Made by a program: the position numbers and the translations under genes
Origin: Candidatus Undinarchaeales archaeon SRR5007147.bin71
GTDB lineage: Archaea > Undinarchaeota > Undinarchaeia > Undinarchaeales > Undinarchaeaceae
Reading direction: 5' to 3'
Assembly: GCA_014189675.1 (NCBI GenBank)
Contig: DVAE01000028.1
Span: 1 to 6,587, forward strand
DNA: 6,587 nucleotides
The notes under the pieces: generated by a model
Told to the model about the DNA's origin: nothing
What the model saw: only the letters and a program-made list of their open reading frames with translations
Databases searched by the model: none
In this document: positions 3,359 to 6,587 of the stretch, piece by piece
How positions within the stretch are numbered: position 1 is the first letter of the stretch
Layout of the letters: each line of letters begins with the position of its first letter

Positions 3359-5185
3359 ATGGAAATTCATCCGGCACAACTCGGTCAAAGCAAGTCTCTA
3401 CTCTCAAAATATCTGTTCATTGGAGCTGTAGCTCTAATGCTTACAGGCTCCAGTATATTACTCCTCTCTGAAAATACGGCTCAAGCAGGTCTGTCATCAG
3501 TCACCGGTTTTCTAACACTTTCCAAAGCTGAGGCTCCCTTGAACATCGTTGAATCTCCGGAAAGTGAAAGCTCTTCTGATACAGAAAATCCTCCCGAATC
3601 TGAGCCTGTCTCAGGCTTTCTAAACCTTTCAGAAAACCAGGAAGAAGAAATTACAGAAGAGCAAGCAATCCCTCAAGATATTTTTCCAGGCACTCCTAAA
3701 AATCTTGTACTCCTGATTCTCGACGGAGCCGGCTGGAACTACTTCAGTGAGCAGAATACTCCAAACATGCTCAGCATCTCCAGAAATGGTTTTGTTCTGG
3801 AAAATATGCGAGTCCACCTCCCGGAAACCGCTAGCTCTCACTCCACAATCTTTACAGGACTCTTCGACAAGCGCTACGACTGGGCAGCATCTCTTCAAAT
3901 TCTCAGCTCAAGAAATGACACAATTATGGACTCTGCCCGCGCTTCAAATATGACAGTTCTCGCAGTTCTTCCTAACGGCGATTCTTCCCAGCTCCTCAAC
4001 AAAACGGACGCCGCTCTCTTTGACAGAGACAATGGCTACTATTATTTGGATTCAAATCTTCACATCGGAAACATCTCCTCAAAGCTAAACATCACAATAA
4101 CCTCTGCAAACAATCTCTCCTCCTACTCTGGTTCAAATCCTTACACTGAAAAAAACAAATGGGTAAAAGATTCCCTAATTTCAATCCTTGAAAATCGGCC
4201 GGATAAATTTATCCTGCTGGCAAATATGCCAGGAACAGACAGCGCCGCCCACCAAGGATTCTCAGACTATCTTCCAGCTCTCCGAGAAACAGATCTCTTC
4301 GTCGGCCAGCTTTACAATGCTATGAAGCGCCTCGGAGTTTTCAATGACACAGTCTTAATCATAACATCAGACCACGGTATGGACAGAAGCCGTTATGGAA
4401 ACGGGGTTCACTCAGATCTATATAATGACAAAACTCTCAATGTTCCCTTCATAGCCGTCGGTCCCGGAATCCCCATAAAGAGTTCATCTGAACTCAGCCA
4501 CAACGATGATATCTTTCCGAGCATAGCAAAACTGCTAAATATTTCACGGCCTGCAAATGTCTCAGGTTCTCCAATTCCAAGTCTTTTCAACAACTCAACA
4601 ATACTCTATATAATAAACAGCTCAAGTTCTTACATCTCCGGAAATGTCAGCACAAGAATCTGGATTCGTAATACAGGACTTCCAAGAAACGCAACACTGT
4701 GCCTCAATATATCAACCATAGGCTATTCCGGAAACTCCTGTCTAAACTTCACAGCCTCGGAAGAATCAGAAGTAGAGTTCATATGGCAGCCGACAGGTTC
4801 TGGTATTTACGAAACAAAATCAATACTATATAACAAAACATTTTCCAGTCTCTTTACCCTTGGAAACATTTCTGACATGGGCGTATCTAAAATCTACACA
4901 ACACGCGACAGCGAAAATCCGAACAAGCTCATAGTCAAGGCAGTCATCACAAACTACGGAGCCTTTATAGAGTCAGGTCTCGGAGCAAAAATCACCGTCG
5001 GAAACCAAACAAGGGAATACGGTCCTTACAGCACTAATGTCACAATTCAGAAAACAGTGAGCTCAACATGGACTCTAGCTCCTGGTTGGTATAATATAAG
5101 CGCGGAAGTGACAAATTACACAAATTTCCAAAATGATGCCAACCACAACAATAATATAAGGCATATAATTACCTACTTAAGCTGA
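3359..5185 (+). CDS. membrane-anchored alkaline phosphatase superfamily hydrolase with CARDB-like C-terminus
   Basis: 608 residues, predicted outside the cell and held by one N-terminal helix (17-36). Residues 45-110 form an acidic Ser/Glu-rich linker. The catalytic domain (114-400) resembles type I phosphodiesterases (PF01663): metal ligand Asp122 in LLILDGAG, probable nucleophile Thr157 in PETASSH, the D-x3-H pair Asp294/His298 in GTDSAAHQG, Asp338/His339 in TSDHGMD, and His351 in GVHSDLYN, so the two-metal site looks complete. Two beta-sandwich regions follow (about 412-500 and 505-605), the last CARDB-like and ending DANHNNN. More than 20 N-x-S/T sequons suggest heavy N-glycosylation. The substrate is unknown: a nucleotide or phospholipid-type phosphodiester, or a sulfate or phosphoethanolamine ester, are all possible. 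It has its own TATA box. Confidence 0.85.
   Translation: MEIHPAQLGQSKSLLSKYLFIGAVALMLTGSSILLLSENTAQAGLSSVTGFLTLSKAEAPLNIVESPESESSSDTENPPESEPVSGFLNLSENQEEEITEEQAIPQDIFPGTPKNLVLLILDGAGWNYFSEQNTPNMLSISRNGFVLENMRVHLPETASSHSTIFTGLFDKRYDWAASLQILSSRNDTIMDSARASNMTVLAVLPNGDSSQLLNKTDAALFDRDNGYYYLDSNLHIGNISSKLNITITSANNLSSYSGSNPYTEKNKWVKDSLISILENRPDKFILLANMPGTDSAAHQGFSDYLPALRETDLFVGQLYNAMKRLGVFNDTVLIITSDHGMDRSRYGNGVHSDLYNDKTLNVPFIAVGPGIPIKSSSELSHNDDIFPSIAKLLNISRPANVSGSPIPSLFNNSTILYIINSSSSYISGNVSTRIWIRNTGLPRNATLCLNISTIGYSGNSCLNFTASEESEVEFIWQPTGSGIYETKSILYNKTFSSLFTLGNISDMGVSKIYTTRDSENPNKLIVKAVITNYGAFIESGLGAKITVGNQTREYGPYSTNVTIQKTVSSTWTLAPGWYNISAEVTNYTNFQNDANHNNNIRHIITYLS
3500..3631 (+). repeat. duplicated VTGFLTLS / VSGFLNLS motif flanking an acidic linker
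   Basis: Residues 48-55 (VTGFLTLS) and 84-91 (VSGFLNLS) of the hydrolase are six-of-eight identical and lie 36 residues apart, separated by a Glu/Ser/Pro-rich stretch. The DNA copies, 3500-3523 and 3608-3631, have drifted, so this is an old or selected duplication. Confidence 0.6.
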
Positions 5186-5208: not shown

Positions 5209-5706
5209 ATGGCAAAAAAATCAACAGCCAATAAAGGAAAGAAAAACGGCAAAGGAAAGCTCACAATGAAACACAGGGAGCTTATCGAAGATGCCGGCTG
5301 GTTTAACGCTGGGATTATTATTGAAGTTCAGGGTAATAGCAAGGAGCATGTAAGTTCCACTCTTGAAGCTCTTGTAGAGCGCCTTGGAAAGGAAGAAGAT
5401 GTCAAAATCTACAGTACAGATTACGACGAAATGCAGGAATTTAAAGACGGCTTTTTCTCACTTATGGTGGATACCAGATTCATCACAAAGGACTTCGGAA
5501 GGCTGGTCCACATAGCCCTTCTCTACTCACCATCAGTATTCGAGATATACAGCGATAAGAAAGATGTCGAAATCGCTATCGGTGACGCCCAAAACATACT
5601 CGTTGACGTGTCAAATCTTGTCAACAGGCTGGCTCACCAAGTCTTTATTCTGAAAGGACACATAAACAGACTGGAATCTGGTGAAAAAAATGGAAAATCT
5701 GCCTAA
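5209..5706 (+). CDS. conserved archaeal protein of unknown function
   Basis: 165 residues, cytosolic, with no signal peptide. Residues 1-23 are a Lys/Gly-rich basic tail (nine lysines), which could bind nucleic acid. The folded part starts near WFNAGIIIEVQGNSKEHVSSTLEALVERL as strand-helix and continues with a second strand (VKIYSTDYDEM), a third (FFSLMVDTRFI), a segment LLYSPSVFEIYSDKKDVEIAIGDAQNILVDVSNL and a long C-terminal helix (125-156). The order resembles a ferredoxin-like alpha-beta fold followed by a helix. The 'PS-EI' and 'AQN-L-D' spots match a family I recall from DPANN archaea, with no known function. It begins 23 bases after the hydrolase stop and lacks a well-placed TATA box, so it may be cotranscribed. 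A possible box, CATATAATT at 5162-5170, would give a leader of about 15 to 20 bases. ATG 5266 is an alternative start. Confidence 0.75.
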   Translation: MAKKSTANKGKKNGKGKLTMKHRELIEDAGWFNAGIIIEVQGNSKEHVSSTLEALVERLGKEEDVKIYSTDYDEMQEFKDGFFSLMVDTRFITKDFGRLVHIALLYSPSVFEIYSDKKDVEIAIGDAQNILVDVSNLVNRLAHQVFILKGHINRLESGEKNGKSA

Positions 5707-5722
5707 AAGGCTCACAGAAACC

Positions 5723-5730
5723 TTTATATA
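5723..5730 (+). promoter_or_regulatory. strong TATA box of the S-layer gene
   Basis: TTTATATA preceded by a BRE-like cagaaacc, 16 bases past the upstream stop. A start site about 25 bases downstream of its centre falls near 5752, giving a 5' leader of roughly 75 to 80 bases before the ATG at 5830. Confidence 0.65.
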
Positions 5731-5765
5731 CTAAACTTACGTGTTCTGATGATAACACAGGCTGT

Positions 5766-5801
5766 GTTTTTGTTTTGTTTTACAAAAAACAAAGCAGAAA
5801 C
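5766..5801 (+). promoter_or_regulatory. 16-bp hairpin in the S-layer mRNA leader
   Basis: Bases 5766-5781 pair continuously with 5786-5801 around the loop ACAA (5782-5785): three G-C, eleven A-U and two G-U pairs, with no mismatch. The 5' arm is a U-rich tract (tttttgttttgtttt). A smaller 6-bp hairpin, 5754-5759 with 5763-5768, begins about at the predicted mRNA 5' end and competes for bases 5766-5768. Likely roles are mRNA stability, attenuation or termination of the upstream transcript. Confidence 0.6.
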
Positions 5802-5816
5802 TGGCCGCCTAAAATA

Positions 5817-5821
5817 GGAGG
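5817..5821 (+). promoter_or_regulatory. Shine-Dalgarno site of the S-layer gene
   Basis: GGAGG with eight bases before the ATG at 5830, an ideal match and spacing. It is the only clear ribosome binding site in the window and fixes the S-layer start. Confidence 0.9.
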
Positions 5822-5829
5822 AAAAAAAT

Positions 5830-6587
5830 ATGCAAAACCTATGGAAGAAAGTTGGAGCAGCTTTCGGCAGTGCCGTAATGATCGGTGCAACACTTGCCGG
5901 TGCAGCTCTAGCTCAGACAGGTTCTGACCTCGGGGACTATAATGATCTTGTAGTCACTGATGGCGCAGTAAGTGCGCTATACGTTGTAGGAGCAAACGCA
6001 GCAACAGCTGACGTTGTTTCCGCAATGGGTCTGACTGCATGGGCCGGTAACCAGCAGGTTTCCGGAACTGCAGCAGGCGCAGGAACTGTCACTTTGACAC
6101 CGCTAAAGGCTAGCGCCGAGGGTGTAACAAGACACGTTGAGATTGACCACCATGCAGAGCAGGCATACGAGTTCTCAACAACCGCAACAAGCGACAAGCT
6201 TGCTGGAGAAACATACGCTTCAGGAGACAGCCTTGTTGACTTCCTTTACAGCCACAAGGGCAAGGGAGCAATATATGTCAACAGTACAACATACAACTGG
6301 CATGAAGAGCTTGTCATTGATCTGAGCGACTTCAACGTTTCCAGAGACACACTTGACTCAAATGCTGGAGACCAGTACGACGAGATTTTCATGTCTGTCG
6401 AATCTGGTTCTCTGCAGTACAAGTGGACCTTTGATAACAGCCAGGAACTTGGAAACCTCGACCTACAGGGCGAGAAGATGTGGTTCATGGGAGAGGAGTA
6501 CACAATTGTCTCCGTTACCGGAACCAAGGTCAAGCTAGGAGCATCAGATGCTGAGCTTGTTCTAACATCTGCAAATCCAAGTGCAAC
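5830..6587 (+). CDS. S-layer protein, N-terminal part (3' end outside window)
   Basis: The frame runs open from the ATG to the window end, giving 252 complete codons. A Sec signal peptide is clear: basic MQNLWKK, a hydrophobic core GAAFGSAVMIGATLAGA and an ALA cut site at residue 28. The mature start QTGSDLGDYNDLVVTDGAVSALYVVG fits the N-terminal S-layer domain of Methanococcales-type proteins (PF05123), where GDYP-like and 'VVG-NAA--DV--A' segments recur. The rest is Thr/Ala/Gly-rich beta sheet with several acidic patches and two sequons (NST at 151, NVS at 169). The protein should assemble into the surface lattice and be among the most abundant in the cell. Expression signals agree: strong TATA box, structured leader, perfect GGAGG. 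The domain call is from recognition of motifs; the missing C-terminus would normally carry an anchor or second domain. Confidence 0.85.
   Translation, partial: MQNLWKKVGAAFGSAVMIGATLAGAALAQTGSDLGDYNDLVVTDGAVSALYVVGANAATADVVSAMGLTAWAGNQQVSGTAAGAGTVTLTPLKASAEGVTRHVEIDHHAEQAYEFSTTATSDKLAGETYASGDSLVDFLYSHKGKGAIYVNSTTYNWHEELVIDLSDFNVSRDTLDSNAGDQYDEIFMSVESGSLQYKWTFDNSQELGNLDLQGEKMWFMGEEYTIVSVTGTKVKLGASDAELVLTSANPSA

Follow-up and report, generated by a model that had tools for sequence, protein, structure and literature searches.

Of all proteins of an archaeon, the S-layer protein is usually the most abundant; it makes up the surface that faces hosts and viruses, and to our knowledge the control of its supply in archaea is largely not understood. 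The locus described here raises the question of whether the message for such a protein begins with a folded leader and, if so, what the fold does. We analysed a stretch of 6,587 nucleotides (hereafter the window), which is contig C13 of a 623,718-base genome (G000) of the phylum Undinarchaeota. The closest named relative of this genome is archaeon UBA55 (G001, DAFN01000007.1), and six species genomes (G000-G005) represent the phylum in our search set. An earlier note on this DNA had assigned the leader to an S-layer gene, and profile searches confirm the assignment: the part of the gene in the window scores 25.7 bits with PF05124 (curated cut-off 23.9) and the complete gene of G001 scores 66.5 bits with TIGR01564 (cut-off 25). 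The gene is present in all six genomes of the phylum.

The features discussed below are collected in Table 1. The gene that precedes the S-layer gene encodes a protein of 165 aa without a Pfam, NCBIfam or significant PDB match, and relatives of this protein occur in 45 of 101 archaeal genomes. In G002 its homologue and the S-layer gene lie on different contigs, owing to a contig break. Also near the S-layer gene, positions 3359-5185 of the window encode a secreted-looking protein of 608 aa with a sulfatase/phosphodiesterase domain and many N-glycosylation-type sites. The end of reading frame 2302-2841 contains a direct repeat, GTGGTTCAATAAGTACT (2781-2820), whose two copies lie some 20 bases from each other; G001 differs in this part of the window. 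The sole match of the window in an Rfam search at gathering scores is a tRNA.

Table 1. Features of the S-layer locus and of related leaders. Positions refer to the window unless a contig or locus is given.
Feature	Position	Strand	Evidence or remark
Upstream gene, 165 aa	5209..5706	+	adjoins the S-layer gene in G000, G001, G003, G004 and G005
Block without difference from G001	5629..5933	+	305 bp; 93.3% identity over the 3.3-kb alignment
TATA box TTTATATA	5723..5730	+	sequence; promoter string shared with G003 and G005; genome-wide TATA-to-start spacing
22-codon upstream reading frame	5749-5817	+	ATG at 5749-5751; stop at 5815-5817 overlaps the ribosome site
Predicted transcription start	5752..5754	+	deduced from leaderless spacing, 21-23 nt past the TATA box
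Weak 6-bp 5' hairpin (AACACA/UGUGUU)	5754..5768	+	transient, -3.6 kcal/mol
Main hairpin	5760..5806	+	16-bp stem and 5-bp foot with bulged U5765; 21-bp helix
U-rich arm GUUUUUGUUUUGUUUU	5766..5781	+	same letters in G001 and G005, similar stretch in G003
4-bp hairpin over part of the ribosome site	5808..5818	+	RNA folding, pair probabilities
Ribosome site GGAGG	5817..5821	+	first base 13 nt before the start codon
S-layer gene, 5' third	5830..6587	+	remainder on G000:C7, which overlaps the window contig by 151 bases
3' hairpin and U-tract	G000:C7 1659-1715 (L068)		counterparts at the S-layer 3' ends of G001-G005
f37 leaders	L148, L149, L150, L151, L152, L153, L156		just before the S-layer start
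f95 leaders	L157, L171-L176		upstream of S-layer genes

We first consider the hairpin itself. The earlier note had described a 16-bp stem closed by an ACAA loop, and RNAfold, which it had proposed as a check, recovers this stem in a stronger form than was described. Positions 5766-5781 pair without interruption with 5786-5801 around the loop at 5782-5785, two of the 16 pairs being G-U (U5770-G5797 and U5773-G5794), and five further pairs (5760-5764 with 5802-5806) form a foot below the bulged base. The stem alone is worth -16.0 kcal/mol, stem and foot together -23.0 kcal/mol and the whole fold of 5753-5835 -25.1 kcal/mol. None of 1000 dinucleotide shuffles of 5751-5838 was equally stable (z -4.5), against z -1.1 for the antisense strand, which makes the fold specific to the sense strand; the sense RNA is favoured by both G-U pairs. 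No uninterrupted stem on either strand of 243 kb of G000 is longer, and the one that ties with it is weaker and rich in G-U pairs. Among 247 upstream regions in the same 243 kb, that of the S-layer gene has the lowest z (-5.15), in agreement with the suggestion that the structured leader is particular to this gene. The hairpin is thus real and a structure of the sense-strand RNA.

The place of the hairpin in the message depends on where transcription starts. In the genus of G000, the spacing of TATA octamer and ATG has a sharp maximum at 21-23 nt; from 347 starts, this bin holds 19 matches and most other bins about one to two. This peak is the mark of leaderless genes. A match of at least five bases to the ribosome site precedes 26 of the 236 starts assessed, so that the earlier impression that the other starts are leaderless was broadly right. 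When the leaderless spacing is applied to the TATA box of the S-layer gene, the 5' end is predicted at 5752-5754 and the leader at about 77 nt; the helix is thereby predicted to begin 6-8 nt from the 5' end of the mRNA. These results, like those below, were obtained on metagenome assemblies, with predicted transcript starts, heuristic gene calls and start choices, and with some kinship among the sampled genomes.

The comparison within the phylum gives a mixed picture. The leader is identical in G001, as part of a block with no differences where about 20 were expected from the alignment; this block includes coding sequence on both sides, and selection on the proteins or recombination may contribute to it. 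G003, G004 and G005 belong to other genera and their S-layer proteins are about 50% identical. In G005 the U-rich arm, 31 nt past the TATA box, is preserved in every base, whereas the A-rich partner of this arm is gone without compensation, and the leader of G005 taken from its predicted start folds no better than shuffled sequence (z +0.8). The leader of G003 has a similar U-rich stretch and a possible 10-bp U/A stem, and its folding is at the level of shuffled sequence (z -0.6). In the leader of G004 the U-rich arm is absent, and two unrelated strong hairpins (z -4.2) begin some 2 nt from the predicted 5' end. The leader of G002 falls in an assembly gap and was left out. In short, three of the four genera have the U-rich sequence, two of the four a strong 5' structure, and the exact helix is not conserved. 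As the arm of G005 is kept without its partner, part of the constraint is on the sequence and not on the helix. One of the conditions that the earlier note had named as refuting its reading, homologous leaders that lose the pairing without compensation, thus applies in part, through G005.

In a wider search, 39 of the 197 archaeal genomes encode relatives of the S-layer protein. We compared a first set of 29 S-layer leaders, collected before any choice by structure, with 286 control leaders of at least 60 noncoding bases each. Values of z below -2.5 were observed in 10 of the 29 and in 14 of the 286 (Mann-Whitney p 1.3e-6). The difference persists when the leader of the window is removed (p 3.6e-6) and when family means are used (7/19, p 1.5e-5). 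In a set of 40 leaders, enriched by two families followed up later, the fraction below this threshold is 47%. Methanococcus-type S-layer leaders are not structured, and no relative was found in viral contigs.

Two families, f37 and f95, were compared in more detail. MAFFT alignments of both broke the hairpins, and compensatory pairs were therefore counted on hairpins anchored by hand. The seven leaders of family f37 have two tandem hairpins between promoter and ribosome site, many with GNRA loops. Double compensatory changes occur at 13 of 14 pairs, with the caveat that anchoring by hand favours pairing, and on these hand-anchored hairpins 92% of cells pair, compared with 22-42% for shifted partners. 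Looking for compensatory changes, as the earlier note had advised, spoke against the exact helix in G005 and for pairing in the f37 leaders. The f95 leaders have the motif CCC(A/G)AG in common; in most of them CACUG and then a long variable hairpin come after it, and this combination is a possible further RNA element; for its basal helix alone the statistics are weak (double changes at two of six pairs, 30 of 2000 shuffles equally good). An Rfam search at gathering scores gave no match in 12 S-layer loci, nor do the leaders of f37, of the phylum, of G031 and of G129 match any family. It looks as if folded S-layer leaders recur in many small-genome archaea and represent a little-studied protection or control of the message. 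We tentatively propose, with rather less than even confidence, that small-genome archaea share a widespread class of structured S-layer leaders, undescribed in the openly readable literature, in which each lineage places different hairpins between the RNA start and an open ribosome site and thereby controls the dosage of the coat protein, perhaps via Lsm, aCPSF1 or the S-layer precursor.

What might the hairpin of the window do? In each of the six genomes, a strong hairpin and then a U-tract come directly behind the S-layer stop codon, and the stem sequences of these 3' hairpins differ among genera. The closeness of the helix to the predicted 5' end, the structured S-layer leaders elsewhere and the 3' hairpin together make stabilisation of the mRNA, one of the roles put forward in the earlier note, the most economical. 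Under this reading, the S-layer mRNA would start about 77 nt before the AUG and, within its first 10 nt, fold into the 21-bp hairpin, which would be followed by a largely open stretch with GGAGG. By shielding its 5' end, the hairpin would most likely guard a very abundant mRNA against 5'-end-dependent decay, and it would leave the ribosome site within an unobstructed stretch where ribosomes can land; the second hairpin with its U-tract would close the 3' end. We infer the transcription start, the abundance of the mRNA and the stabilising effect alike, and shielding presupposes a 5'-to-3' exonuclease that is putative in these cells. The leaders of G003 and G005, which fold no better than shuffled sequence, count against stabilisation. 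On balance, we give about even credence to a 5'-end hairpin that stabilises the abundant S-layer mRNA and leaves the ribosome site open.

The conservation of the U-rich arm points to another explanation, in which the arm is the actual element, a promoter-proximal site to which a U-binding protein, either SmAP/Lsm or the archaeal termination factor aCPSF1/FttA, would attach and which perhaps also stops transcripts that read through from the upstream gene. In that case the hairpin would be secondary and hide or present the tract. The exact 16-mer recurs in G005 and a similar one in G003, at 31-35 nt from the TATA box, and across the six genomes perfect matches are confined to S-layer leaders. 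Positions 5767-5781 hold runs of U5, U4 and U4, i.e. three runs of at least four U, and efficient binding of aCPSF1 needs two U4 runs (PMC8716108), which are to be neighbours, as they are here. Lsm is encoded in all six genomes, aCPSF1 at full length in five and as a fragment in G003, and between the upstream stop codon and the S-layer start neither G000 nor G005 has a comparable U-tract elsewhere. On the other hand, the arm is absent from the leader of G004, stop codons in G000 are not generally followed by a U-rich signal, and in the window the arm is buried within the 21-bp helix. Moreover, it lies about 14-29 nt past the predicted start of the S-layer gene itself, so that strong termination there would halt the S-layer mRNA at about +30. 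We therefore regard this explanation as rather unlikely when taken as an alternative. It is compatible with the hairpin reading, since the U-tract may have a role of its own and the helix may hide a tract that is read by a protein.

Other copies of the U-rich arm in the six genomes were considered and set aside, as near-matches are no commoner than those of a reversed control pattern. They include one orthologous pair in T-rich intergenic regions with repeated TTCCANNGGAA-like boxes (G000:C38, about 20,150-20,650, L082; G002:C6, about 34,700-35,200, L083). Lying beside an Orc1/Cdc6-like gene, this region is a probable replication origin, named by eye.

The earlier note had also raised the possibility of a switch or attenuator. 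In the form considered here, a hairpin at the 5' end, the long helix and a pairing over the ribosome site would exchange upon a signal. Its elements exist in part. The competing 5' hairpin is a genuine pairing of negligible weight at equilibrium (probability about 0.1-0.2%): it forms only in RNA shorter than about 50 nt, that is in truncated transcripts, and is then displaced by the main helix. This order of folding in the growing RNA would suit a switch, as would RNA motifs that accompany S-layer genes in bacteria and have been put forward as candidate riboswitches (SLH motif, PMC6429828). However, the two exclusive folds have energies of -23.0 and -14.9 kcal/mol, about 8 kcal/mol apart, whereas a riboswitch calls for folds of comparable energy; with such a gap, a balanced switch in which the 5' hairpin and the long helix alternate is not supported. 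Nor does the ribosome site behave as a switch would require. It lies outside the main helix and, in all four genera, GGAGG is placed 13-14 nt from the start codon. The pairing of 5805-5810 with 5816-5821 can be drawn as described, and full masking fails, because its outer two pairs have a probability of about 1% at equilibrium; in the shorter pairing of 5808-5811 with 5815-5818, two of the five GGAGG bases are covered about 70% of the time. As full pairing is rare, no counterpart was seen in the leader of G003, and masking in G004 and G005 uses other pairings, masking of the ribosome site is weak, not conserved and not supported. The leader also lacks a conserved ligand-like core and an Rfam match. 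A conditional switch is accordingly improbable.

Two further explanations fare worse. The 22-codon upstream reading frame could encode a leader peptide whose translation opens the hairpin and hands ribosomes on; the frame is visible in the sequence, and an ATG frame of G005 reads the U-rich arm as FLFCF. However, the transcript of the window is predicted to start 3-5 nt downstream of the ATG of the 22-codon frame, and G003 and G004 have not preserved this frame, which leaves this a very remote prospect. We give equally little credence to a DNA palindrome bound by a regulator, with incidental RNA folding: its position just downstream of the promoter would fit, but in DNA both G-U pairs become mismatches, the strand asymmetry noted above speaks against it, and S-layer leaders elsewhere keep the pairing with different sequence. 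Antitermination by TRAM was rejected because no stand-alone TRAM protein was found in the six genomes of the phylum.

Uncultured lineages such as these are hard to study genetically. A recurring strand-specific RNA structure with compensatory changes offers a concrete element, testable also in tractable hosts, for asking how archaea achieve exceptional stability or translation of one mRNA.

How does this leader compare with known systems? The slmA1 S-layer protein of Methanosarcina is of another type than the one studied here. Its gene is similar in having a long 5' UTR with predicted structures, whose role is not established, a terminator-like hairpin after the coding sequence and very high expression (PMC3361143), the last being presumed for the mRNA of the window. 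It differs in its leader of 154-159 nt, its measured 5' ends and its unrelated sequence. In Lactobacillus acidophilus, the slpA leader folds into a large stem-loop, for which a protective effect on the mRNA has been proposed, according to the passage of PMC6482533 that cites Boot et al. 1996. That system is bacterial, with a different sequence and different decay enzymes, and the same passage reports the slpA mRNA as stable, whereas for the window stability is presumed. The 5'-UTR hairpins of Methanococcus maripaludis that are opened by TRAM0076 (PMC6705878) are likewise archaeal and affect expression; in contrast to the hairpin proposed here, these stems of 9-13 bp lower expression unless unfolded, and a stand-alone TRAM that would do so was not found in the six genomes. 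The bacterial SLH motif (PMC6429828) is also a structured RNA upstream of surface-layer genes, but it is a riboswitch candidate, and the archaeal leaders had no Rfam match in a library that may not hold this motif. Finally, the U-tract terminators of aCPSF1/FttA (PMC8716108) resemble the U-rich arm in having several U4 runs within about 20 nt, but they lie at the 3' ends of genes, whereas the tract of the window lies near the 5' end of the mRNA and is paired.
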